A stretch of 64,000 nucleotides of DNA from assembly GCA_002698785.1 (NCBI GenBank), contig PAAG01000036.1:1-64000 (forward strand), given 5' to 3'. Numbering within the stretch: position 1 is the stretch's first letter; the number at the start of each line of letters is the position of its first letter. This document shows, one piece after another, positions 30,354 to 60,674 of this stretch. Both the position numbers and the translations under genes were made by a program. The stretch comes from Verrucomicrobiales bacterium (GTDB lineage Bacteria; Verrucomicrobiota; Verrucomicrobiia; Verrucomicrobiales; DEV007). Below the pieces are notes generated by a model. The model saw only the letters and a list, made by a program, of their open reading frames with translations. It had not been told where the DNA came from and ran no database searches.

Positions 30354-32987
30354 TCACCGCTTCTCGATCACATGCTCTACCGGCTCTTGGCTGGTCGCCG
30401 AAATCGAGCTCACCACAACAGACTCCTCGTTCACTTTCTCCACCCGAAGAGTCTCCCCCGGGGCTGACGGAAGCGAAAAACTATCTCCCTCTTTCACAAA
30501 AATGATATCCTCATCCTTCGTCGAAAATTCGGCGAAATACGTCGGGATAACAGTCTCAGTCTGGCGGAGCAGTTCATACGTCTCTTGGGTAGGTAGATAG
30601 ACAATCGTGATGACAGAAGCATCCAAATTGATTCCATTTCTGACCATTTCCTTCTCCTCAAACGACTCGATTCGAAATTGCCCGTCCTCAGAAGTATCTC
30701 CGACTCTCAAATAGAAATTTTCCGGCTGTGGCCATTTCGCCGTTGGCAATCGGCGAATTTGAAATCTCTCAGCATCCGGTCGAGCAGCATACTCGAGTTT
30801 GTATTCCTGCTGCTTTCGATCGACAAAAACCAGCCCTTCGATACCTGGGCTCTCCTTACCCGGCGGGGCATTCCCGATATCCGTAAACCAGCCCTCGGTT
30901 ACATATTCCTTGATCACCAGATGCTCGGTTCCATGAGGAAAGGAAACACGCTCCAGCGTCAGGATAACCGCAAGTGGTTCATCATTTAACCCCACAACCG
31001 CGTCCAGATCGCTAGCCATGGGAGAATCCCTCCTCACAAAAGCAGCATCAGAAAATTCGTTCAACTCCCCGTAAGGCGCATTAATCCCAAAAACATAATA
31101 ATCGTCCAGATCAGAAAAAGAATCACGATCAAGACCGTAATAGTCAGACTTACGTTCGAGTACGACACGATATGTCCCCGGATTCGACATTTCGCCTTCC
31201 AGGAATTTCGCCAAATGCCGGTCGTGAAATTCGACGAAAATCTCCCAGTCGACTTTCAGGTTTCCATCCTCGACCCTCACAATGACAGGAAATCCCTGAT
31301 CCCCTTCCTTAGTCGAAATGAGATACACCCAGTAAGGACCTCCCATTTCCTCATCCATCTCCATCTGGAAAAGCTGATTGGAAAATCGCGAAATCTTCAC
31401 ATATGGCCACTTCTCATAGTATGCCTCAATCGCAGGGCGTAGGCGTTCCACTTGGTAGCAGTATTTCAGTCGATCCTCCCAACTGGGAGCGTAGACGAAC
31501 GCGTCGATTATCTCTTTCACTCGGGTCAGAGGCCCCTCGTCCGGCCCCGGTGCAGCAAACGTGTCAGGATAGTCCGAGGTCTCTTCTTTCTCTCTCGCAT
31601 CTGCATCGTCAACCGAACCTGCTTGCGTAGGCTCTCCAACAATTTCAGCAACACGTTCGGCAAAATCCTTCTCCTCTTCTTTCGGCTCCGGCGCCGCACC
31701 GTTACTGTCGACGATCAACACCGGCTCGTCAGTATCGCCCGGCAAAGCTGTCGTGCTCCCGTTTTCTGAAGAAGGTTCAGCATCCCCCTCTTCACCCGAG
31801 CCGTCATCCCCACCTGACACATCCACCACATTTTCACCATCAACACCAGCATCCTTCGCCGTCCCGGAAAAACCACCAGACTTGAACTTCATGACAACAA
31901 TCACCGAAACCGACACCACGATTACCGCCACAAAAATACCCATCAAAATCTTCTCCCATCCCACGGATGTCCTCCTACCCTCCGGTCGAGGTTTCGGCCA
32001 TGGGCTTGGCGGATCTGGGTCAGGCTCAGCATCAGAAACCGGCTCAGTATCGGCACCCTCCTTACCTATGAAAAGCGATCTCATCTCAAGCCACGCATCC
32101 CTCATCTCCGACGCCGAGGCAAAACGCTCATCAGGCTCTTCCTCCAGAGCTTTTCCTACCCAATCGTCAACCTCGTCCGAGAGATCATCTCTCAGCTTGC
32201 TTGGCTTACTCGAAAAACTGGGCCGATTCTTACCCGTCAACAATTGGAATGCGATCAGGCCGATCGAATACAGATCACTCCGTTCAGAATGATCCTCAAG
32301 AAGCGGCGGCAACAACTCCGGAGCCATATACTGAATCGTGCCAATCATCGCTTCCGCACGACTACTCTTCTCCGCCGGAATCGTGTCCCCTATCTCGGAC
32401 AGGTCCGGGGGATCACCAGAATTGTCTACCTGGACCTTCGTTTCGATCCAGGTCGTCTTCAGTTGCTGCTTATACTCCTCCGGATCGATCGCCTGCGCCA
32501 AACCGAAATCGGCGACAACGATCCCATCCTCATCGAGTAAGATATTCGCCGGTTTAATATCCCTATGCAGCACCTTCGTATCGTGAGCATAAGAAACCGC
32601 ATCCAGAATCTGATCGACTATCTCAAACACATCCACCAGCGGGAACTGCGCTTCATCGTCCATTCGGTCCCGCAGCGTCACCCACCGACTCTCCCCATCC
32701 GTCGCAGGAATCCCCTTGATCAAAGGCATCTGCATCCACGTCACACCATTTTCATCAGGATGAAACCCATTCACCTCAAGAATATGAGGGTGAGCAGCAC
32801 CCAAATTCTTCATCACCCGGGCCTCGTTCAGAAAACGCGCCCGAAAACTTTCATCCCCACTGTATTCCTGATGGAGAACCTTCAAGGCAAACTCATTCCC
32901 CAATAGATCGCGAACCGAGTATACAGTCCCCATACCACCCCTCCCGATGGTATCTTGCTTAATGTATTGACCGATCGTTTCAGGCAT
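30354..32987 (-). CDS. Transmembrane Ser/Thr protein kinase (PknB-like)
   Basis: An 877-residue protein. Residues 1-300 are a complete Hanks-type kinase domain: GRGGMGTVY glycine loop, FALKV with the ATP lysine, HRDIKPANILL catalytic loop, DFGLA metal site and MAPEL activation-segment end. An insert of about 30 residues sits between DFG and APE. A membrane span follows (ILMGIFVAVIVVSVSVIVVM, about 343-365), then an acidic, low-complexity linker and an extracytoplasmic beta-rich region (about 490-877) with no PASTA repeat. It should phosphorylate cytosolic proteins in response to an envelope signal. The starts of kinase and preceding genes are well separated. Confidence 0.93.
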   Translation of the reverse strand: MPETIGQYIKQDTIGRGGMGTVYSVRDLLGNEFALKVLHQEYSGDESFRARFLNEARVMKNLGAAHPHILEVNGFHPDENGVTWMQMPLIKGIPATDGESRWVTLRDRMDDEAQFPLVDVFEIVDQILDAVSYAHDTKVLHRDIKPANILLDEDGIVVADFGLAQAIDPEEYKQQLKTTWIETKVQVDNSGDPPDLSEIGDTIPAEKSSRAEAMIGTIQYMAPELLPPLLEDHSERSDLYSIGLIAFQLLTGKNRPSFSSKPSKLRDDLSDEVDDWVGKALEEEPDERFASASEMRDAWLEMRSLFIGKEGADTEPVSDAEPDPDPPSPWPKPRPEGRRTSVGWEKILMGIFVAVIVVSVSVIVVMKFKSGGFSGTAKDAGVDGENVVDVSGGDDGSGEEGDAEPSSENGSTTALPGDTDEPVLIVDSNGAAPEPKEEEKDFAERVAEIVGEPTQAGSVDDADAREKEETSDYPDTFAAPGPDEGPLTRVKEIIDAFVYAPSWEDRLKYCYQVERLRPAIEAYYEKWPYVKISRFSNQLFQMEMDEEMGGPYWVYLISTKEGDQGFPVIVRVEDGNLKVDWEIFVEFHDRHLAKFLEGEMSNPGTYRVVLERKSDYYGLDRDSFSDLDDYYVFGINAPYGELNEFSDAAFVRRDSPMASDLDAVVGLNDEPLAVILTLERVSFPHGTEHLVIKEYVTEGWFTDIGNAPPGKESPGIEGLVFVDRKQQEYKLEYAARPDAERFQIRRLPTAKWPQPENFYLRVGDTSEDGQFRIESFEEKEMVRNGINLDASVITIVYLPTQETYELLRQTETVIPTYFAEFSTKDEDIIFVKEGDSFSLPSAPGETLRVEKVNEESVVVSSISATSQEPVEHVIEKR

Positions 32988-36608: not shown

Positions 36609-36980
36609 TTAAGTCATCTCCCCGATGATCCCTTCAACCCTTTCCCTTGTTGCAGAGAAAACGGTCGTCGACACGAAAATCTCCCCGTCGCGAAACCAGT
36701 AGCCTTCTGCACTTCCGCCAATCCAAACTTCGTGCTTCGCGAGTTCAGAAATCAAATCTCCGCCACCATCTATATCGAGTACGCAGAACCGAAAGCCATC
36801 TGGCAGATCCAGTCTCTGCAAAGATTCGCATATCCGCTGAAAACCCATTACAGCCGGACATGACCAGAACGCCATCAAGAGGAGAACACCTACCTCGATA
36901 TCGAGCGTGCCGGCGTTCTCATCAGATTGATATTCATACGAGGAATACAGCCCCTTGCTGTATTCTCTTAATATCTTCAT
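36609..36980 (-). CDS. Small protein with thioredoxin-fold-like pattern
   Basis: From the ATG at 36980 the product is 123 residues; a longer reading to 37040 exists. VGVLLLMAFWSCPAVMGFQR followed by FRFCVLDIDGGGDLISELAK resembles the first half of a thioredoxin fold, where the WCxxC site is reduced to WSCPAV. Redox activity is therefore doubtful. Its stop abuts the stop of the convergent PD-(D/E)xK-like gene. It could be a binding or immunity-type partner of the cassette. Confidence 0.55.
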   Translation of the reverse strand: MKILREYSKGLYSSYEYQSDENAGTLDIEVGVLLLMAFWSCPAVMGFQRICESLQRLDLPDGFRFCVLDIDGGGDLISELAKHEVWIGGSAEGYWFRDGEIFVSTTVFSATRERVEGIIGEMT

Positions 36981-37143
36981 TCCATCAGTCCTGCCTGGCA
37001 TTCTGCTCTCACCACAATATATCAATATAAATAAATTCAAGGCTACCGAGAGTCATACCGGAAAAAAGGACACAAACCGGCGCTCGAAAAAAAGCAGGAC
37101 ACAACGGGAGAAAATTGCAATAATCCCCCATCCCAAGGTCCTC

Positions 37144-38037
37144 ATGAAAACCATCACTCCCACCGCAGCAAACGAGTCCAGCGATGCCACCTATCTCGAT
37201 GTTCGCTTGCTCGACGATTACCAGCATTCCCACATCGCCGGAGCCGTCAGCAACTGCGTGTTCGAAGTCGCCTTCACCGATCGCCTCGAAGGAGCCACCC
37301 CTGACAAAGACGCCATCTACATCGTCTACGGCGCAAACGAGAAAAGCAAAGAAGCCGAAATGGCCATCGAGAAAATGGAGCGACTCGGCTACACCAACCT
37401 CACCCTGCTCGAAGGAGGCTACACCGCCTGGACCGCTGCCGACCTCCCCACCGAAGGCACCGGCGATCCCCCTGCCGAACCCAACATTCCCGAAGGCACC
37501 CACCAGCTCGACCTCGGCCAGAGCTACCTCATGTGGACCGGACGCAACCTTCTCAATAACCACAACGGTCGCGTCGGCATCAAATCCGGCGAAGTAGAAA
37601 TCAAAGACGGCAAACTCACTGGCGGCCGCTTCGTAATCGACATGACCAACATCTGGTGCAACGACCTCCAGGGCGACGCCCACGATGGACTCATCTCCCA
37701 CCTCAAGAGCCACGACTTCTTCGACGTCGAGCACCACCCCGAAGCCGTCCTCGAAATCCGCAGCGCAAAAGCCATCGAAGACGCCCCTCCCGGCACCCAG
37801 AACCTCATCATCACCGGCGACCTCACCCTTAAAGGTAAAACCGCCCCCGTCGAGCTCGCCGCCGTCGCAGGAGTGACACCCGAGAAACAACTCGCCGCCC
37901 AGAGTTCCTTTCTCATCGACCGCACCGTCTGGAACGTCCTCTACGGCTCCGGCAAACTCTTCAGCCGAGTCGGCATGCACCTCGTCAACGACCTCGTCGA
38001 TATAGAAGTGAAGGCCGTCACGCTACCGCCTTCTTAA
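37144..38037 (+). CDS. Rhodanese-like / YceI-like fusion protein
   Basis: A 297-residue protein from the ATG at 37144. Residues 17-105 are rhodanese-like (YLDVRLLDDYQHSHIAGAVS, then LTLLEGGYTAWTAADLP), but the active-site loop reads IVYGANEKS, with Gly where the catalytic Cys of a sulfurtransferase belongs, so this half is probably binding only. Residues 118-297 are a YceI-type lipocalin-like barrel (VDMTNIW-type segment FVIDMTNIWCNDLQGDAH, then LTLKGKTAPVEL, VWNVLYGSGKLFS), whose family binds isoprenoids such as polyprenyl quinones. There is no signal peptide, unlike typical YceI. Fragments of this gene lie at 33.2 kb (5') and 43.05 kb (3'). Confidence 0.88.
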   Translation: MKTITPTAANESSDATYLDVRLLDDYQHSHIAGAVSNCVFEVAFTDRLEGATPDKDAIYIVYGANEKSKEAEMAIEKMERLGYTNLTLLEGGYTAWTAADLPTEGTGDPPAEPNIPEGTHQLDLGQSYLMWTGRNLLNNHNGRVGIKSGEVEIKDGKLTGGRFVIDMTNIWCNDLQGDAHDGLISHLKSHDFFDVEHHPEAVLEIRSAKAIEDAPPGTQNLIITGDLTLKGKTAPVELAAVAGVTPEKQLAAQSSFLIDRTVWNVLYGSGKLFSRVGMHLVNDLVDIEVKAVTLPPS

Positions 38038-43034: not shown

Positions 43035-43127
43035 CTCTACAGCCCAGAAAAACACATCAGCCGAGTTCGGCATGCACCTGTCAACGACCTCGGTAGATAT
43101 TGAGGTGAAATCGGTCACGCTACCGGC
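43035..43127 (+). pseudogene. Fragment of the 3' end of a rhodanese-YceI gene
   Basis: Aligned with 37938-38030, the segment keeps long identical runs (TCAGCCGAG, CGGCATGCACCT, GTCAACGACCTCG, GTCACGCTACCG) but has small indels that break the frame. In one frame it still reads GMHLSTTSVDIEVKSVTLP against GMHLVNDLVDIEVKAVTLP. It is a decayed relic of the last 30 or so codons of a YceI domain. Confidence 0.8.
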
Positions 43128-43245
43128 GAAGGGATCATCGAGAGACCAACTGCTTTGCTTCCCCCCCACTGGCTTCACCGGAGAAGAAAGCAATGCTCAC
43201 GGGGTTGGCGTGAACGAACCGACACCGCGGCCCGAAATCAATAAG

Positions 43246-43567: not shown

Positions 43568-46501
43568 GTGAACTCATCCCAAAAAATCTTCCTCTCCTGC
43601 GTCACCGCCGAGTTCGCTCGTGAGAAGGCTCCGTTTGGTAAGACAAGGCAGGATCTCGCCGCCAAACTCCGCCGCGGCGGTCGCGAAGTAAAATCCGAAG
43701 AAGACTTTCGCCAGGCAGGCAAGGAAGCCATCCTCGAAACCCTCGACGACTTCATCCGCGACAGCGCCATCGTAGTGCAGTTCATCGGCGATCAGCTCGG
43801 AGAGAAGCCCAGCAAAAACGCCCGCGAGCGCCTCCTCGCCCGCATTGAGAAAGACGGCAACACCTTTCTCAACAACCAGACCGAAGCCTTCCTCACCGCC
43901 CTGCCTGCCTACGAGGATCTTACATACATCCAGTGGGAAGCCCTCCTCGCCCTCCACCACAATCGCCCCCTCTTCCTCTACCGCAGCAAAGACAGCAAAG
44001 CGAGCGCCGAGTTCCCGGCCTACGAAGCCCTCCTCAAACAAGCCCACACCGAGCGACACTTCACGCCCTTCGAGGACAAAGCCGACCTTATCACCCTCGT
44101 CGTCGTCGATACCCATCCCTACCTCCTTGCCGTCCCTGCCCCGCTCAACAACCTTCCCGGCTCCATCGGCTACCGCTTCAAAGGGCGAGCCACCGAGCTA
44201 CGCGAAGTCCACGAGGCCCTGCAACACGGGACCAGCGCCATCACCCAGGCCATTACCGGACTCGGTGGCATTGGCAAAACCCGGCTCGCCCTCGAGTATG
44301 CCTACCTCTACGCCGACGAATACACCGCCACCTTCCTCCTCTCCGGCGATGGCGAAAGCACCCTCATCACCAGCCTCACCGAGCTAACCAGTCCCCTCTA
44401 CCTCGACCTTGAGGCCGTCCACCACCGTGACACCGAGACCCGCCTCGCCGCCGTCCTCCACTGGCTGAGCAAAAACGAAAACTGGCTCCTCATCGTCGAC
44501 AACGTCGATTCAGAAGACGCCCGCGAAGCCATCCAATCCCGGCTCGGCCTGCTCCAGCACGGCAAAGTCCTCATTACCTCCCGCCGCAACGACTTCGACG
44601 GCCAGGTCAACGCCATGCCCCTCGGCTTCCTCAGCGCCGAAGCCGCCCGCGATTTTCTCCTCGACCGCACCCAGCGAGAACTCGCCGAAGACGATCCCGA
44701 ATCCGCCGCCCTCGATCTGCTCGTCGAAAACCTCGACGGACTCGCCCTCGCCATCGAGCAAGCCGCAGCCTACATCGCCGTCCACAAAATCACTTTTACC
44801 AATTACAACCAATACTTCGAGACCAACCGCCAGCAAGTCCTCGCCTGGAAAAACGCCAACCTGACCAACTACGACAAAACCGTCGCCACCACCTGGCTCA
44901 CCACCTTCGCTGAGTTGAGCGAAGACGCCAAAGATCTCCTCAACCAAATCTCCTTCCTCGCCCCCGAGCCGATTCCCCGAGCGATTTTTGAGGGAGAAGA
45001 CGTGCTGCCGCATGAAAGTGCGATTAATGACCTCGCCCGTTATTCTTTGGTGGAGATTCTGGATGAACCCGCCGAAACCTTTCAAGTGCATCGGTTAGTG
45101 CAGGATGTGGTTCAGGGGCGATTGGGTGAGGCAAAGGTGGATGTGTGGAGTCTACTACTCAACAAACTTGCCACGTGGGCACCGAATTCTGGCCAAGATA
45201 TTGCCAATTGGCCGAAGTGGGAGCAATTCGAGTTTCACGCAACAGAGCTTTTTCAGCGAGGAAAGGAATTCAAGGATATTCTTGATTTTGGTTACTTGAT
45301 ATCAGGATTTGCGGGGTACGAGCATTTCCGGAACGGTAATTATCCAGTTGGCGAAGCTCTGACACGTCGAGCTTTAAGCGTGCATCAAGAACTGCTCGGC
45401 GTTGAACACCCTGCCACGCTGGCGCGTTCGAACGATTTGGCAGTGATGCTTCTCTCTAACGGTGAATACGAGAAGGCCGAGACGCTTTTCCGACAATCGC
45501 TTTATGTAAGCGAACGAATTTTGGGAGTTGAGCACTCATCAACTTTGACGAACGCAAGTAATTTGGGGTTATCGCTACACAAAAGATCTGATTATGATGG
45601 AGCAGAATCGCTATTTCGGAGAACGTTGGAGATAAGAGAACGAGAACTCGGAGAAGAGCATCCAGACACATTAACAAGCTTGAATAACCTAGCTTCCTTG
45701 TTGGATTCAAAAGGCGAATTTGAAGAGGCAGAACTACTTTTTCTGCGCGCACACAATGCGTCCAATAAAACATTGGGCCCCGAACACCCTAACACATTAG
45801 TTACCTTAGGAAATCTCGCCTGTCTACTGCGAGGAAGAGGCGCATATGAAGAAGCGGAACCGCTTTATGTGCGGGTATTGAGGGGGCTTGAGCACACCCT
45901 CGGAAAAGAACACCCAGACACTTTGCTATGGCTGAGCAATTTCGCCGGACTTCTCGCTGGAAAAGGGGAACATGAAAGAGCATCTGAGATTCTTCGTCGA
46001 TCCCTTGAAGGCCTAGAACGAGTTCTCGGCAAGGACCATCCTACTACATTGACGAGCGTAAATAATTTAGGACTTTCATTGAAAAAACAAGGCGTATATA
46101 GAGAAGCTGAGTTATTTTACAGACGAGCTTGGGAAGGAAGAGCGCGAGCGCTTGGTTCGGAGCATCCCAAGACGCTGTCCAGTATAAACAATCTTGCCGT
46201 GTTGTTATTCGAAATCGGCGATTTTGGAGAAGCGAAGCCTCTGTTTCGACAAGTTATATCTGGAAACGAGCGAATCCTAGGAACGGAGCATCCAGATACC
46301 TTGTCGAGTATTAATAACCTAGCATGCCTGCTCGAAACGCAAAAAGAGCTTTTGGAAGCAGAGGTTCTTTATAAACGAGTAGCCAACGCAGCGGAAGCAA
46401 CGCTCGGAGAAGAGCATCCACATACACGGATTTACAAAATGAACTTACAGGACTGCCAAACCGCCCTTGAGAAATCCAAAGATCCTCCTTCCGACACCTG
46501 A
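43568..46501 (+). CDS. TIR-like / NB-ARC / TPR protein, paralogue 1
   Basis: A 977-residue protein starting at GTG. Residues 1-80 (KIFLSCVTAEFAREK, then REVKSEEDFRQAGKE and AIVVQFIGDQLG) are a TIR/DUF4062-like domain. NB-ARC motifs follow: GLGGIGKTR (P-loop, about 231), WLLIVDNVD (Walker B, about 305), KVLITSR, GLALAIEQA and FQVHRLVQD. Nine 42-residue kinesin-light-chain-type TPRs end it (about 590-965). The architecture is that of NLR-like STAND proteins that act in antiphage defence or signalling. Codon use is C-ending up to about base 44980, then becomes A/T-richer to the end, which suggests a recombinant gene. It has the same length as its neighbour and is 57 bases upstream of it. Confidence 0.9.
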   Translation: MNSSQKIFLSCVTAEFAREKAPFGKTRQDLAAKLRRGGREVKSEEDFRQAGKEAILETLDDFIRDSAIVVQFIGDQLGEKPSKNARERLLARIEKDGNTFLNNQTEAFLTALPAYEDLTYIQWEALLALHHNRPLFLYRSKDSKASAEFPAYEALLKQAHTERHFTPFEDKADLITLVVVDTHPYLLAVPAPLNNLPGSIGYRFKGRATELREVHEALQHGTSAITQAITGLGGIGKTRLALEYAYLYADEYTATFLLSGDGESTLITSLTELTSPLYLDLEAVHHRDTETRLAAVLHWLSKNENWLLIVDNVDSEDAREAIQSRLGLLQHGKVLITSRRNDFDGQVNAMPLGFLSAEAARDFLLDRTQRELAEDDPESAALDLLVENLDGLALAIEQAAAYIAVHKITFTNYNQYFETNRQQVLAWKNANLTNYDKTVATTWLTTFAELSEDAKDLLNQISFLAPEPIPRAIFEGEDVLPHESAINDLARYSLVEILDEPAETFQVHRLVQDVVQGRLGEAKVDVWSLLLNKLATWAPNSGQDIANWPKWEQFEFHATELFQRGKEFKDILDFGYLISGFAGYEHFRNGNYPVGEALTRRALSVHQELLGVEHPATLARSNDLAVMLLSNGEYEKAETLFRQSLYVSERILGVEHSSTLTNASNLGLSLHKRSDYDGAESLFRRTLEIRERELGEEHPDTLTSLNNLASLLDSKGEFEEAELLFLRAHNASNKTLGPEHPNTLVTLGNLACLLRGRGAYEEAEPLYVRVLRGLEHTLGKEHPDTLLWLSNFAGLLAGKGEHERASEILRRSLEGLERVLGKDHPTTLTSVNNLGLSLKKQGVYREAELFYRRAWEGRARALGSEHPKTLSSINNLAVLLFEIGDFGEAKPLFRQVISGNERILGTEHPDTLSSINNLACLLETQKELLEAEVLYKRVANAAEATLGEEHPHTRIYKMNLQDCQTALEKSKDPPSDT

Positions 46502-46558
46502 TTCACTCTATACCTCCTCGCCAATTTATGCAGCCCCCCTGCTCCCACAACCCCACCC

Positions 46559-49492
46559 ATGCCTCCCGAACGCATCACAGAAAAAATCTTCCTTTCCTGC
46601 GTAACCGCCGAGTTTGCTCGCGATCATCCGGATTTCGGCGAGACCCGGCAAGCTTTGGCACATGGTCTTCGGCGACGAGGGCGGGACGTTCGGTCCGAGG
46701 AGGATTTCCCTCAACCACCCGGCGACATCCTCGAAGCCCTCGACGACTTCATCCGCCAGTGCAGCGTCGTCGTCCAGCTCGTGGGCGATAGCTTGGGTGA
46801 CTTACCGACCGTTCAAGCGATCGAGCGGCTGCATGCGAAGTTTGCCGGAGAAGAACGCAGCTTTCTCGACAAGCAGGCCGAGGCGCTTCGCACGGCCTTT
46901 GTAAAGGGCGGACCGCTCACCTACATCCAGTGGGAGGCGCTCCTCGCCCTTCACCACCGCATTCCCCTCTTTCTCTATTGCGACGAGAAGGCACTCGACC
47001 GCCATCAGGCCTACGGCGACCTGCTCGCCCTGGGGAATCCGAGTCGCTATCTCTGGACTTTCTCCAGCTTGCCCGATCTCTACGCCAAAGTCATTGCCGA
47101 TACCCACGAGCATCTCAAGGCGGTGGCGGCGACGCTGAACAATTTACCCGGCTCCATCGGTCGGCGATTCAAAGGGCGGGCCGACGTCTTACGCGAGGTC
47201 CACACCGGCCTGCACGACGGAGCCGGGGCCATCACCCAGGCGATTGCCGGACTGGGCGGGATCGGAAAAACCCGCCTCGCCATCGAGTATGCCTACGCCT
47301 TCGCCAGCGAATACCGCGCCACCTTTCTTCTCTCCGGCGACAGCGAGGCCACCCTCACGACCAGCTTCACCGACCTGACCAATCCGCGCTACCTCAACCT
47401 GAAGGACGTCCACGCCCAGGATTCCGAGACTCGATACCACGCCGTCCTGAAATGGCTCGCGGAGAACGAAAAATGGCTCCTCATCGTCGACAACGTCGAT
47501 ACCCCCGAGGCCCGCTCCGCGATCCAGAATCGCTTCGGCGAGTTGGACCGAGGCAAGGTTCTCATCACCTCGCGGCTGAAGAGTTTCAATACCAAGGTCC
47601 GCACCATTCCCCTCGATCTCCTCACCCCCGAAGCCGCCCGTGACTTTTTCCTCGATCGCACCCAGCGCGACCTTGCCGATGACGATCCCGAATCGCAGGA
47701 ACTCGATAAGCTGGTCGAAACTCTCGACGGCCTTGCCCTCGCCATCGAACAGGCCGGTGCCTACATCGCCGAATTCAACGTTACCTTCGCCAAATACATC
47801 CTACTCCTCGCCGAGAACGAAAAACGAGTCCTCGAATGGGACGACGCCGATCTGACCGACTACGAAGAAACCGTCGCCACCACTTGGCTCACCACCTTCG
47901 AGCGACTCAGCGAAGAGGCCCGCGACATCCTCAACCAGACTTCCTTCCTCGCTCCCGAGCCGATCCCCCGCACCATCTTCGAGCCCGAAGACACCCGCCC
48001 CGACCAGAGCGTCATCCACGAACTCGCTCGTTACTCCCTCGCAGAAATCCTCACCGATCCCGCCGATACCTTTCAGGTACATCGGCTGGTGCAGGGCATT
48101 GTGCAGTCACAGCTCGGCGAGAAAAGGGAAGAGATATGGCATCGATTGATCGCCAAGGTAAAAGAGTGGGCACCGAACGGAGGACAGGATATCTCGACCT
48201 GGTCGAAGTGGGAGCAGTTTGCGTTTCACGCACCAGCGGTTTTCGGACGCGAAAAAGAATACGAAGACACCATAGATCTCTGCTCGCTGCTGAGTGGATT
48301 CGCTGGCTTCGAGCTTTTTCGAAATGCGAACTACGAAGCCGCCGAAAGATACGTCCGGCGAAACTTGGAGGCGGACGAGCGATTACTCGGGCCGGAACAT
48401 CCCAACACCCTATCGAGCATCAACAACCTCGCCCTCTTGCTCAAATCAAAAGGCGACAACAGCGAAGCGGAGCCTCTCTACCGCAGAGCCTTGGAGGCGA
48501 CCAAGCGAGTCCTCGGGCCGGAACATCGAGATACCCTATGTAGCCTCAACAACCTCGCCGCATTGCTCGAATCAAAAGGCGAGTATGAAGAAGCGGAGCC
48601 GCTCCATCGCAGAGCCTTGGAAGCGAGAGAGCGAGTCTTCGGGCCGGAGCATCCCGATACCCTATGTAGCCTCAATAACCTCGCCGCATTGCTCGAATCA
48701 AAAGGCGAGTATGAAGAAGCGGAGCCTCTCTATCGCAGAACGTGGGAGGTGTACGAGCGAGTCCTCGGACCGAAGCATCCCGATGCTTTAAAAAGCGTCA
48801 ACAACCTCGCCGGATTGCTCAAATCAAAAGGCGAGTATGAAGAAGCCGAACCTCTCTATCGCAGAGCGTGGGAGGCATACGAGCGAGTCCTCGGCCCGGA
48901 GCATCCGGATACCTTAACCAGCCTCAACAACCTCGCAGCATTGCTCGATTCAAAGGGCGACTATGAACAAGCCGAGCCTCTCTATCGCAGAGCCTTGGAG
49001 GCGAGGGAGCGTGTCCTCGGGCCGGAGCATCCCGACACCCTATCCAGCCTCAACAACCTCGCCCTCTTGCTCCAATCAAAAGGCAACTATGACGAAGCCG
49101 AGCCTCTCTATCGCAGAGCCTTGGAGGCGTACGAGCGAGTCCTCGGGCCGGAGCATCCCAATACCATGCAGAGCCTCAACAACCTCGCCGCATTGCTCAG
49201 ATCAAAAGGCAACTATAACGAAGCCGAGCCTCTCTATCGCAGAGCCTTGGAATCGAGAGAGCGAGTCCTCGGGCCGGAGCATCCGGATACCTTAACCAGC
49301 CTCAACAACCTCGCAGCATTGCTCGAATCAAAAGGCCACTATGGGCAGGCCGAGCCTCTCTATCAGCAGGCCACGGAAGGGGCCGAGAAGATTCTCGGCA
49401 AAGACCACCCGACCACAGAAATCGTTCGAGCCAACTGGCAACGCTGCCTCGCAGCAATGGAGCAAAAGGACGAGCCACCCGAAGACGACTGA
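46559..49492 (+). CDS. TIR-like / NB-ARC / TPR protein, paralogue 2
   Basis: It is also 977 residues, with the same motif order: KIFLSCVTAEFARDH, DVRSEEDFPQ, GLGGIGKTR, WLLIVDNVD, KVLITSR, GLALAIEQAGAYIAE, FQVHRLVQG, then nine TPRs. Its TPRs are close to identical to one another (consensus EAEPLYRRALEARERVLGPE, then HPDTLSSLNNLALLL), and the DNA is nearly repetitive with a 126-base period from about 48338 to 49470. Paralogue 1 has strongly diverged TPRs. A TIR-like domain could make NAD-depleting activity or a signal nucleotide, but I cannot confirm the catalytic Glu. It is likely co-transcribed with paralogue 1. Confidence 0.9.
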   Translation: MPPERITEKIFLSCVTAEFARDHPDFGETRQALAHGLRRRGRDVRSEEDFPQPPGDILEALDDFIRQCSVVVQLVGDSLGDLPTVQAIERLHAKFAGEERSFLDKQAEALRTAFVKGGPLTYIQWEALLALHHRIPLFLYCDEKALDRHQAYGDLLALGNPSRYLWTFSSLPDLYAKVIADTHEHLKAVAATLNNLPGSIGRRFKGRADVLREVHTGLHDGAGAITQAIAGLGGIGKTRLAIEYAYAFASEYRATFLLSGDSEATLTTSFTDLTNPRYLNLKDVHAQDSETRYHAVLKWLAENEKWLLIVDNVDTPEARSAIQNRFGELDRGKVLITSRLKSFNTKVRTIPLDLLTPEAARDFFLDRTQRDLADDDPESQELDKLVETLDGLALAIEQAGAYIAEFNVTFAKYILLLAENEKRVLEWDDADLTDYEETVATTWLTTFERLSEEARDILNQTSFLAPEPIPRTIFEPEDTRPDQSVIHELARYSLAEILTDPADTFQVHRLVQGIVQSQLGEKREEIWHRLIAKVKEWAPNGGQDISTWSKWEQFAFHAPAVFGREKEYEDTIDLCSLLSGFAGFELFRNANYEAAERYVRRNLEADERLLGPEHPNTLSSINNLALLLKSKGDNSEAEPLYRRALEATKRVLGPEHRDTLCSLNNLAALLESKGEYEEAEPLHRRALEARERVFGPEHPDTLCSLNNLAALLESKGEYEEAEPLYRRTWEVYERVLGPKHPDALKSVNNLAGLLKSKGEYEEAEPLYRRAWEAYERVLGPEHPDTLTSLNNLAALLDSKGDYEQAEPLYRRALEARERVLGPEHPDTLSSLNNLALLLQSKGNYDEAEPLYRRALEAYERVLGPEHPNTMQSLNNLAALLRSKGNYNEAEPLYRRALESRERVLGPEHPDTLTSLNNLAALLESKGHYGQAEPLYQQATEGAEKILGKDHPTTEIVRANWQRCLAAMEQKDEPPEDD
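48338..49470 (+). repeat. 126-bp tandem repeat array inside paralogue 2
   Basis: Nine units of 126 bases (42 codons) each begin near GAAGCCGAGCCTCTCTATCG; clear starts are at about 48464, 48590, 48716, 48842, 48968, 49094, 49220 and 49346. Inner units differ by few bases, showing recent duplication or gene conversion. Confidence 0.9.
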
Positions 49493-56504: not shown

Positions 56505-59500
56505 CTACTCCCCTACCTTCGCCTTCGGAAACCCGGAACTGGTGCAGAGAAACGGGGCGAGAAATGCGATGGCATTGACCTCGCCATACTCTTCTTCCCA
56601 CTTGGGATACAATTTCTTTTGTGCTTCCGTTAGAGATTGGAAGGCCGGAGTGTCATTGAGGAACATGTCGTAGAAGGAGGACATGATCTCCACCGTCGCC
56701 TGGTCTCCCACCGGCCACAGGGTCAAAATGATATTCCGCGCCCCTGCCGTGTTGAGTGCCTGACGAATTCCGAGAACACCCTCATCACCGAACGCGGTCC
56801 CCGCACCCGTGTCACAAGCACTCAGGACAACGAGCTCGGTAGCAGAGAGATCCAGCTCTGCCATTTCCGCCGCAAGCACCACCCCGTCATTTACCGGGTC
56901 CGGAACTTTACCTTCGGCCCAGACAGAAAAGGTATCCTGCGCACTTGTCAGGGCGAGACCCGACACGTACATGGGATGGCGAATGGATTGCCGCGGCGAA
57001 AGCGTCTCAGTTTCCGAATCCCCCTCCTTCTCAGTTCCCACCACCAACTCATCCAAGATGAATCCGTGGGTAGCTAGATGGACAATCGACGCGCCCTGAC
57101 ATTGTTCATCGAGGGCCGACTCCGTTGCCTTCTCCCCAGTCAAACGAACCACCTCGAAATCCTTTTCAGCCAGCTTCCCCTCGATCCCTTCGACTTCCTT
57201 GCGCGTCCCGGGAAGAGGAACGAACGAAATCGCCGGAGTGGCGGATACCAGATTCTCCTCTACTCCACTTCTAATCTCAGTAGCCGCATCTGAGTTCTCC
57301 GCAAGTAGGACCTCAGCTTCGCCACCATTCTCAAAGACAGCATCACCTAACAAGAGCGCACGTCGGGATGGGGCTTCAGTTGAAGTTGAACCGGTAACCA
57401 GGTCGCGCCCACTCGTCACATAGCGAACGTCATACTTCGAGAGGAGAGTGTTCTTTTCCCCGTCACGCAGAAATGCGAGGGGGATAAAGTGAAGCTGGTC
57501 CCCGGGACTCAGGATCACGGTTTTCATACCTCCCAGATGCTCCTCGATCGGGGCAATGACCGCGTCGTAAAGAGCCGTTTCCGCTTCGCGAAATTTCTGC
57601 ACACGTTCTTCGTCTTTCACCAGCTCCGCCGTCGCCACGGTGATGATCTCGCGATAGGTCTCGATGGCTTCCTCAATAGGTGCTGCCGGACCGTGAGGAA
57701 TGAAAACTGCCTCGCCCTCTTTCTTCAAAAGCACAGAAGCATAATGGAGTTCCTTGTTTTCCTCCTTCGTGATCGGCTCATAGCGGAACATCTCCACAAG
57801 AGCTGCGTCGGCGGGAAGTACGCTGCGAACCTCATCCGGCCCGATGGAACAGGGAGCTACTCCTGCCTTCTCCGTTTCTAACATGTCCGCAATCTGCTTC
57901 TCAGTGCTTTCCAGCTCCGCTCTCAAAGCAGCCGCCTCCTTGCTATGCTGTCCCTTTTCAAGGATCGCTCGGTGAAACCGGTTCGCCAGGTTCTCGCGCT
58001 TCGCCATCATCTCTACGGCTTGCTCATTTTCCGCCAGCTTACCTGCTGCACGACGACGCTCACTTAGCATATCGAGGACGGCACCTTTCAGCCGAATCTG
58101 CTCCTCGACCATCAAATCGGCATCACCCAGTGTCCCCGGTAGATTCACCGTATTATCACCCGCTCGAGCCACCAGACACTCCCGCTCCGAGAAATAGGTC
58201 AGAATACGGCGCCACCTTTCGTAATCCAGTTCGAGAGCCTGCTTTCCGAGCTCCAGCGCCTTTTCTCTCTCTCCTGATAAATGATAGGTTAATGCAAGGT
58301 CGGCTTTGGCAGTGCGAATCGAATAACCAGCGTCTCCGTTCTCTTTTTCATAAATGGCCACAGCTTGCTCGAATAAATCCGCAGCTTTTGCAAAATCTCG
58401 CATGGCATAGTAATGCCCCGACGATAAAAGAGCATGGGCCGTCCGTTCGTGTTCCGGCCCGTGTATTTCTTTCGCAAGCTCGATGGCGAGTTCAAAGGTC
58501 TTCTCGGCCTCTTCCTCTTTGCTTTGATCGGCAAGCACTTGTGCTCGCGACGCCGCTATGAGCGGTCGCAGAGACTGGTCGACTTCCTGATCTTCCAGTA
58601 GCTCCATCGCTCGTACGAAAGCTTTGTTCGCCTGCTCAAGCTTACCCTGGTCAGACAATATCAGTCCCAGGCCGTAAAGGTTCGCAGCGAGTTTGTAATG
58701 ATCCTCCCCAAAGATTGATTCATTAATTTCGAGAGCCTTTGCATACATGCGTTGGGCTTCTTCGTTCTGTCCGAGTCGGACGAAAAGCGATGCTCGATTC
58801 ACGCAAACTGCCGCCAAGTCAGGATGATTCGGACCGTACGCGCCCTCCATCAATTCCATGCAGCGCAAGAGCGCCCGGTCCTGATCTGCATAGTCGCCGA
58901 GGTAGTTGTAAATAGTCGAAAGATTGAACAATGCAGTGATCGCAAGCGGGGTCTCTTTTCCGTAGGAGTCTTGCGCGGTATCAACAGCTTTCTGGTAGAT
59001 CCTCTTTGCTTCCTTGTAGCCCCCCCGGCTCGTCGCAATGTTTCCTTGAGTAATCAGGATCGACACATACTTGTCTGGATCCTGCTTTTCTGAGCGTTCC
59101 AAATCTGTCACTGCCGAAGCGAGTAGTTCATCCGCTTTATCGAATTCACCTACGGCAGAATAGAGACTGGCGAGGTTCGTATACAGATTCAGCGAAGCAT
59201 CTACTGGTTCCCCACTGGACACCTCCCCTGCATTTGTCAGGGCCTCTTCATAAGTCTTCCTCGCCTTTTCGATTTCCCCCATAGCATGGTAGAGAGAGCC
59301 GAGATTTCCTGCCGCAACGAGCAATTCTGAGTCGTCGGGTTCAAAACTGGAAAGGCAATAGTCATGATAATCCGTCAGGAATCCCTCGGCAGCTTCGAAC
59401 TTTCCGAGGTCTGCCAGATTGTTCCCGTAGTCCGACATCGCATTATAAATCTCGGGATGACCAGGCGCATAGCAAGCCGCTTTTGCGTCGAGCGCTTTGA

Positions 59501-60674
59501 TCAGGAGTTTCTCCGAATCCTCATATTTACTCTGCTCCTGCATCAGTGTCCCATACAAATGATACACGTGCGCAGTACGACGATGACCGGTGCCCAGCTT
59601 CTTTTCAAACACATCGAGTGCATAGATAAAGCACTCCTCAGCCTCTGCTGCTCTATTGTTCTCCCGGTGAACACTGCCCAGGACATAGTTTGCTATTCCA
59701 TCTCCCAGCGAAGATTCATCGTCAATGGCCACGATTACCTTGATCGCTTTCTCGGCTAAAAACTGAGCCTGCTCAAGATCTTCCATATCGAGATAAAGCT
59801 CCGCCAAGATGGCCAGGGCATAGGCCGTCTTCGTATGGTTCTTCCCCACCTCGGATGCGCAGGCGTTCGCCAGATCAGTCAGAATAAGCTCGGCTTTTTC
59901 ATACTCTCTGATTTCGAGATAGAGCGACCCAAGGTTGTCCGTCATCCTCAGGTTCTCTAAGTGCGTCATGCCGAACTCCTTGTGGCACACATCCATTCCG
60001 GCCTGGAAGGATTTCTCCGCTTCTTCAAACATCCCCCAGAATTGCTGGAGCAAGCCTCGATTCTCGTATAGAACGACAAAATCGAGTGGTTTGGCCTCTG
60101 GATCTTGCTTCAGGTTCTCCAGCACTTTCTCGTAGATGACCTCCGCTTCTTCCGGTCGGTCGTTTCTCCCATAGAATTCGGCCAGATTGCTCATATCGAC
60201 ACCCGTCCTGCGAGCCTTCGCGCCGAGAGCTTCCGAGGACAGTTCGACTGCCATCTTGTAGTACTTTTCGGCCTCCTCCACTTTTTCCAGCGCATCGTAA
60301 GACTCCGCCAGCCAGTTGACGATCAGACTGAGTGTCTTCGGCTTCTCTTTCCCATCGTCGTAATAGTTCACCGCCTCCAGGAGCGCAGGGACTGCCCTTT
60401 CATACTCGCCCCCCATGTAATAGCACTGGCCCAGAGACATATTGCACTGGGCGACCATGTTATGATCCGCGCCGAACATTTCGATCGCCTGGTCGCGGAA
60501 TCTCTCTGCATAAGGCGCAGCCTCGAGATACTTCCCCTGCTCTTTGAGTGACGTCATTTTCGTCGCCACCTCGCGGACCTCCTCTTCCGTAACCGCTGAG
60601 GCTTCACTTGGTAAAAAATGAGCCAACAGAAGCACGGCACAGAGAAAGGAGAATAAAAAGCGGGCAGGCATCAA
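56505..60674 (-). CDS. Secreted TPR - CHAT domain protein
   Basis: A 1389-residue protein with a signal peptide (FLFSFLCAVLLLAHFLPSEA). About 20 TPR-type units of the 42-residue class fill residues 35-830. The C-terminal CHAT peptidase domain (about 1010-1385) keeps both catalytic elements: VHLATHGF (His, about 1199) and VVLSACDTGAG (Cys, about 1286). CHAT is a caspase-like cysteine protease fold. In gram-negative bacteria TPR-CHAT proteins are mostly cytosolic (for example with type III-E CRISPR effectors), so an exported one is unusual. No CRISPR or gasdermin gene is near. It runs divergently from the pseudopilin-vWA gene. Confidence 0.9.
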   Translation of the reverse strand: MMPARFLFSFLCAVLLLAHFLPSEASAVTEEEVREVATKMTSLKEQGKYLEAAPYAERFRDQAIEMFGADHNMVAQCNMSLGQCYYMGGEYERAVPALLEAVNYYDDGKEKPKTLSLIVNWLAESYDALEKVEEAEKYYKMAVELSSEALGAKARRTGVDMSNLAEFYGRNDRPEEAEVIYEKVLENLKQDPEAKPLDFVVLYENRGLLQQFWGMFEEAEKSFQAGMDVCHKEFGMTHLENLRMTDNLGSLYLEIREYEKAELILTDLANACASEVGKNHTKTAYALAILAELYLDMEDLEQAQFLAEKAIKVIVAIDDESSLGDGIANYVLGSVHRENNRAAEAEECFIYALDVFEKKLGTGHRRTAHVYHLYGTLMQEQSKYEDSEKLLIKALDAKAACYAPGHPEIYNAMSDYGNNLADLGKFEAAEGFLTDYHDYCLSSFEPDDSELLVAAGNLGSLYHAMGEIEKARKTYEEALTNAGEVSSGEPVDASLNLYTNLASLYSAVGEFDKADELLASAVTDLERSEKQDPDKYVSILITQGNIATSRGGYKEAKRIYQKAVDTAQDSYGKETPLAITALFNLSTIYNYLGDYADQDRALLRCMELMEGAYGPNHPDLAAVCVNRASLFVRLGQNEEAQRMYAKALEINESIFGEDHYKLAANLYGLGLILSDQGKLEQANKAFVRAMELLEDQEVDQSLRPLIAASRAQVLADQSKEEEAEKTFELAIELAKEIHGPEHERTAHALLSSGHYYAMRDFAKAADLFEQAVAIYEKENGDAGYSIRTAKADLALTYHLSGEREKALELGKQALELDYERWRRILTYFSERECLVARAGDNTVNLPGTLGDADLMVEEQIRLKGAVLDMLSERRRAAGKLAENEQAVEMMAKRENLANRFHRAILEKGQHSKEAAALRAELESTEKQIADMLETEKAGVAPCSIGPDEVRSVLPADAALVEMFRYEPITKEENKELHYASVLLKKEGEAVFIPHGPAAPIEEAIETYREIITVATAELVKDEERVQKFREAETALYDAVIAPIEEHLGGMKTVILSPGDQLHFIPLAFLRDGEKNTLLSKYDVRYVTSGRDLVTGSTSTEAPSRRALLLGDAVFENGGEAEVLLAENSDAATEIRSGVEENLVSATPAISFVPLPGTRKEVEGIEGKLAEKDFEVVRLTGEKATESALDEQCQGASIVHLATHGFILDELVVGTEKEGDSETETLSPRQSIRHPMYVSGLALTSAQDTFSVWAEGKVPDPVNDGVVLAAEMAELDLSATELVVLSACDTGAGTAFGDEGVLGIRQALNTAGARNIILTLWPVGDQATVEIMSSFYDMFLNDTPAFQSLTEAQKKLYPKWEEEYGEVNAIAFLAPFLCTSSGFPKAKVGE

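Follow-up and report, generated by a model that had tools for sequence, protein, structure and literature searches.

Adjacent paralogous NLR-like receptors with predicted TIR-like NADase domains and differently evolving TPR arrays in a Verrucomicrobiales bacterium

The DUF4062 domain has been described in a 2026 preprint as a family of TIR-like enzymes that cleave NAD+ (NADases; PMC13174449). Bacterial Swarozyc protects against phage by depletion of NAD+, for which its residue E97 is required, and the DUF4062 domain of human TEP1 is also active (PMC13174449). In fungal NLRs, concerted evolution of the tetratricopeptide repeats (TPRs), together with selection on their concave face, has been shown (PMC4986451). 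Here we describe a pair of adjacent genes, gene 1 and gene 2, located in a stretch of 64,000 nucleotides (hereafter the window) from a Verrucomicrobiales bacterium (assembly GCA_002698785.1, contig PAAG01000036.1, positions 1 to 64,000). Their products, P1 and P2, consist in the same order of a DUF4062-type TIR-like domain, an NB-ARC/DUF7779 switch of the STAND class and nine TPRs of 42 residues (Table 1). Our preferred interpretation, which we hold with moderate confidence, is that P1 and P2 are tandem paralogous NLR-like receptors which act independently, respond to different ligands and share loss of NAD+ as a predicted common output.

Both open reading frames are intact with 977 codons each, and alignment of the two products reveals homology over the full length with 57% identity (E = 0). 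Residues 190–956 are accounted for by NB-ARC, DUF7779 and TPRs, both in Pfam and in the full-length structure model, which is poor at residues 420–557, a stretch that we leave uninterpreted. A first-pass annotation of this DNA had proposed two adjacent NLR-like proteins of 977 residues with a TIR-like/NB-ARC/TPR make-up, and our analysis bears out their coordinates, strand, lengths and homology as well as the make-up, each protein having a conserved Glu in a DUF4062-type TIR-like fold and an intact STAND switch. The equal length, however, results from the common layout of nine repeats of 42 residues, in which small indels compensate one another, and carries no information of its own. The same annotation saw a shared switch and effector set against strongly different TPRs. 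Identity amounts to 51% for residues 1–190 and again for the TPRs, as against 65% for NB-ARC and 63% for the DUF7779/winged region; thus the switch alone stands out as conserved while the effector is no better preserved than the TPRs, and the proposed contrast has to be corrected. The TPRs do differ in kind: the repeats of gene 2 are alike and those of gene 1 have diverged from one another. The gap of 57 bp between the genes contains no promoter-like or terminator-like site, and co-transcription is plausible.

Table 1. Positions of the features of the gene pair within the window
Feature	Position	Strand	Basis
Gene 1 (P1), 977 aa, GTG start, TIR-like / NB-ARC-DUF7779 / TPR	43568..46501	+	ORF; Pfam TPR_12, NB-ARC, DUF7779 over cut-off
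Gene 1 effector, TIR-like (DUF4062-type), residues 4-185	43577..44122	+	A3 profile alignment, hmmsearch; hhalign; sister-domain model
Gene 1 candidate catalytic Glu E124 (TYIQWE motif)	43937..43939	+	Motif Glu in 18/18 aligned effectors
Gene 1 NB-ARC switch, residues 190-440, Walker A GLGGIGKT 231-238, LLIVDN, LITSR	44135..44887	+	Pfam 26.8 bits, cut-off 23.5
Gene 1 DUF7779, helical part of switch	44903..45133	+	Pfam
Gene 1 TPR array, nine 42-aa repeats diverged from one another, GC3 about 0.41	45302..46435	+	
Intergenic gap, 57 bp, genes on same strand	46502..46558	+	ORF positions
Gene 2 (P2), 977 aa, ATG start, architecture as gene 1	46559..49492	+	ORF; Pfam
Gene 2 effector, TIR-like (DUF4062-type), residues 8-185	46580..47113	+	AlphaFold2, Foldseek, VIA-align
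Gene 2 candidate catalytic Glu E126 (TYIQWE motif)	46934..46936	+	Invariant in A4; start of helix 122-132 in model
Gene 2 NB-ARC switch, Walker A 231-238	47126..47878	+	Pfam 25.6 bits, cut-off 23.5
Gene 2 DUF7779	47894..48127	+	Pfam
Gene 2 TPR array, 9 x 42 aa	48293..49426	+	
Gene 2 homogenised 126-bp units, 8.0 copies, 84% matches	48364..49369	+	Tandem Repeats Finder
ORF, open reading frame; GC3, G+C content at third codon positions.

Comparison of profiles assigns the N-terminal domains to the DUF4062 type. The profile of their clade aligns with a profile built mostly from bona fide DUF4062 domains over 180 columns (hhalign 99.6%, E = 1.1e-24) with the motif Glu aligned, PF13271 (DUF4062) is matched by nine out of nine members of alignment A4, and a homologue of the same architecture (L088/L030, in genome G045) carries DUF4062 over the Pfam cut-off; no Pfam family is over threshold in the N-terminal 190 residues of P2. 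The AlphaFold2 model of the P2 effector (per-residue confidence, pLDDT, 80; predicted template-modelling score, pTM, 0.80) displays five strands alternating with helices, and the domain is predicted to adopt the fold common to TIR domains and nucleoside deoxyribosyltransferases. Foldseek ranked the bacterial TIR protein PdTIR (3h16) first (E = 3.6e-4) and matched TcpB as well, and VIA-align gave Z-scores of 11–12 to nucleoside deoxyribosyltransferase-like hydrolases (DNPH1/MilB) and of 10.5–11 to the TIR domains of RPS4/RRS1, SPARTA and TIR-STING. The Pfam models of canonical TIR domains stay under their cut-offs, TIR_2 reaching 12.9 bits against a cut-off of 28. A profile search of PDB sequences returned only chance matches, nor did hhalign give a significant result with a single canonical TIR sequence; the link to TIR therefore rests on the fold and on the DUF4062 profiles. 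The Glu of the (S/T)xxQxE motif is kept in all 18 sequences compared, P1 and P2 included. Since DUF4062 domains have been reported as NADases (PMC13174449), hydrolysis of NAD+ is predicted for both proteins.

Alternatively, the TIR-like domain might produce a nucleotide signal that acts on another protein as effector, rather than deplete NAD+ itself. Some bacterial TIR systems work in this way, and Thoeris-type TIRs pass a nucleotide signal to a separate effector. Production of second messengers by TIRs is also stated in PMC13174449. However, the DUF4062 domain of TEP1 gave no further ADP-ribose derivatives (PMC13174449) and no candidate signal-binding effector is identified beside the pair; we regard this alternative as very doubtful. 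A scan of genome contigs by profile returned no loci with A1 and seven with A3. The TIR-like domain of P1 and P2 also occurs in two other settings, in which its partners were recognised by eye. At L031 9085–9981 (genome G007) it is fused to two predicted membrane helices in place of a STAND switch, and at L073 6661–8451 (G045) to an apparent formylglycine-generating-enzyme (sulfatase-modifying) domain.

The switch is intact in P1 and P2, with the Walker A, Walker B (LLIVDN) and TSR sensor (LITSR) motifs all present. Recent gene conversion was considered as a cause of its higher identity and is judged to be weak, because synonymous identity in the switch exceeds only slightly what a matched composition would predict (z about 2.3 and 2.0), synonymous sites elsewhere being saturated.

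The most pronounced difference between the two genes lies in the sensor arrays. Pfam detects a TPR_12/TPR_10 array in both, and the TPR_NPHP3 model is over its cut-off in both. Pairwise comparison of repeats 2–8 of gene 2 gives 64–86% identity in protein (mostly above 70%) and 75–88% in DNA, with mean nonsynonymous (dN) and synonymous (dS) divergence of 0.15 and 0.35, whereas the repeats of gene 1 are 36–55% identical in protein with saturated dS. Tandem Repeats Finder accordingly detects an array (period 126) in gene 2 and not in gene 1, and no positional or register correspondence exists between the two arrays beyond repeat 1. The array of gene 2 was thus homogenised recently, long after the duplication, in a way that resembles the TPRs of fungal NLRs, while that of gene 1 is old. 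Homogenised arrays are also present in many other proteins built on the same switch and TPRs (hereafter the chassis). In gene 1, GC3 breaks at codon 468 (window position 44972, near the end of the switch) from 0.78 to 0.43 with a log-likelihood gain of 64, and the change is milder in gene 2 (0.76 to 0.64); the sensor half of gene 1 may therefore have a different history from the rest of the gene. A drop of GC3 before the TPRs similar to that of gene 1 is seen in loci L114 and L119.

In the switch tree and in the effector tree alike, P1 and P2 group together as sisters (support 100/99), and the pair arose by tandem duplication of a whole gene. The same placement rules out independent acquisition of the two genes. 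A phage or viral origin was also considered, and no relatives were found in phage records or viral contigs. The duplication is old, with synonymous sites near saturation. No third copy was found in the own genome, a draft of 60 contigs with 96% completeness and 5% contamination. It is possible that the two copies are functionally redundant, kept for dosage, with the differences in their TPRs being neutral; both copies are intact and their branches in the switch tree are near equal (0.30 and 0.29), as such a reading would have it. However, the duplication is old, yet both copies have stayed intact and their arrays evolve in different modes, and we consider redundancy to be quite unlikely.

The NB-ARC-DUF7779 chassis occurs in 24 of 240 Verrucomicrobiales genomes. 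One copy is detected in 18 of these 24, so that a partner is not a general requirement of the chassis; the remaining six contain two chassis genes, which are adjacent only in the genome of the window and in G037. The closest homologue from the same genus (in G025) is a single gene, and so are the other nearest homologues of the same architecture that were found (G045 and L059). These counts bear on the suggestion of the first-pass annotation that the two proteins work as a sensor–helper pair as in plants, in which one protein (for example P2) would sense and the other would execute within an obligate hetero-oligomer. The narrow spacing on one strand, the strong asymmetry of the sensors and the presence of adjacent chassis pairs in G037 and on plasmid pVL1_5 of Methylobacterium indicum are in keeping with such a pair. 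However, besides the prevalence of single genes, the marks of paired NLRs (divergent orientation, an integrated decoy, a degenerate motif in one partner) are all absent from P1 and P2: the genes are arranged head-to-tail, architecture is identical with no extra domain integrated, and the P-loop and the candidate catalytic Glu are kept in both, so that neither protein looks specialised. The suggestion therefore finds no support here and an obligate pair seems improbable. A variant with division of labour, where gene 2 would provide a fast, repeat-shuffled sensor as in fungal NLRs and gene 1 a fixed co-receptor or executioner of one hetero-oligomeric NADase, appears to us improbable as well. Binding of different ligands, which the annotation had also offered, is the best-supported functional prediction, since it is in their sensors that the two proteins evolve differently.

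The N-terminal position of the chassis is variable within the order, where it is occupied by DUF4062-type, canonical TIR, SEFIR-like TIR or SMEK domains (the latter, in our reading, presumably nuclease-like in fold), by a further unclassified domain or by none of these. One switch clade with 100/100 support contains DUF4062-type, TIR and SMEK effectors together, which indicates that effectors have been swapped. The clearest case comes from a named species. On plasmid pVL1_5 of M. indicum (L122, NZ_AP024150.1, 4472–10799), two head-to-head receptor genes have switches with 99–100% nucleotide identity over about 300 residues, one gene carrying a TIR_2 domain (E = 3.6e-19) and the other a DUF4062-type domain, and the identity begins abruptly at the linker preceding the switch; a SLATT_1/DUF4231 gene sits between them. 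The pair records a recent natural swap of effectors at the effector–switch linker. The presence of both domains on near-identical switches places them in the same functional slot and argues that DUF4062-type domains do the job of TIR domains. A single gene with the architecture of P1 and P2 is found on plasmids of Sinorhizobium meliloti.

Taking these observations together, we propose that the TPR superhelix of each protein would bind a ligand, most probably a protein from a phage or another foreign source, and that binding would release the NB-ARC/DUF7779 switch and allow the protein to oligomerise. The TIR-like domains clustered in this way would cleave NAD+, and the infected cell would be stopped or killed. 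After duplication of the whole gene the sensors took different routes, the array of gene 2 being homogenised through exchange of repeats and that of gene 1 left to diverge, such that the two receptors would now act in parallel with the same output and most likely with different ligands.

Several observations weigh against this proposal. P2 itself scores 20.5 bits with DUF4062, under the Pfam cut-off of 24.7, and its membership therefore rests on its relatives and on profile comparison. Human NPHP3, which has a similar DUF4062-NTPase-TPR layout, did not cleave NAD+ in vitro (PMC13174449), hence a conserved Glu does not guarantee activity. No PADLOC model names P1 or P2 and no PADLOC defence family fits them, and their neighbourhood contains no recognisable defence island. 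It may thus be that the two are regulatory or scaffold STAND-TPR proteins with an inert TIR-like domain, as in NPHP3, or parts of an FxSxx-type peptide system; in line with the latter, P1 and P2 score 509.8 and 460.5 bits with NF040586 (FxSxx-COOH system TPR protein; cut-off 300). However, no FxsB radical SAM maturase is over the cut-off in the own genome (best 90.8 bits, cut-off 370), and NF040586 recognises the general NB-ARC-TPR chassis and likely misnames such receptors where FxsB is absent. Moreover, the TYIQWE Glu is kept in both copies, and TIR or SMEK domains can replace the DUF4062-type domain in the effector slot; in M. indicum a TIR does so on the same switch, with a SLATT gene next to it. 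We therefore consider a non-immune role rather unlikely and retain the proposal of parallel immune receptors.

The genes around the pair encode metabolic and secreted proteins, a TPR-CHAT protein and a protein kinase, and no Rfam family was found within the window. The TPR-CHAT protein (1389 aa, 56505–60674, minus strand) is about 7 kb away and is possibly another conflict or cell-death protein. The Ser/Thr kinase (877 aa, 30354–32987, minus strand) matches PD-T4-6 and other kinase models of PADLOC, a match that covers the kinase domain and may be generic. By eye, positions 43060–43135 look like a remnant of the C-terminal end of a YceI/rhodanese protein, the one encoded at 36955–38037, which suggests that the intervening genes were inserted or rearranged.

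In comparison with known systems, the pair adds a good example to a kind of immune protein that is already known and does not represent a new kind. It shares with Swarozyc (KpSwz, PMC13174449) a DUF4062-type TIR-like domain with a conserved Glu; judged by domain layout rather than by comparison with the KpSwz sequence, however, P1 and P2 have NB-ARC, DUF7779 and TPRs in place of the portal-binding auxiliary domain. TIR-NB-ARC-TPR proteins of the same order (for example L094/L034) have the same switch and TPR chassis but carry a canonical TIR_2/TIR domain over the cut-off. Fungal NB-ARC/TPR NLRs (Podospora, PMC4986451) are alike in their 42-residue TPRs of high internal identity, their NB-ARC and their swappable N-terminal effectors, yet these effectors include sesB-like, HET and PNP_UDP domains. 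The threshold of repeat conservation used for the fungal proteins is 85% identity across 100 aa; gene 2 falls just short of it with a best value of 83%, and gene 1 reaches 52%. The M. indicum pair likewise consists of two adjacent receptors on the same chassis, one of them with a DUF4062-type effector, but differs in being head-to-head, with different effectors, essentially identical switches and a SLATT gene in between. In our locus the type of effector and switch is constant while the sensors evolve in opposite ways, and what repeat turnover contributes to the recognition of ligands therefore becomes testable within one locus. Among human proteins, NPHP3, TEP1 and NWD1/2 have DUF4062 next to a NACHT ATPase (PMC13174449), where P1 and P2 have NB-ARC with DUF7779. 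The order of DUF4062, STAND NTPase and TPRs is that of NPHP3, which is human and inactive in vitro, and the bacterial, duplicated P1 and P2 thus offer a clean parallel to the NPHP3-like layout, with a predicted TIR-like NADase, a STAND switch and 42-residue TPRs.
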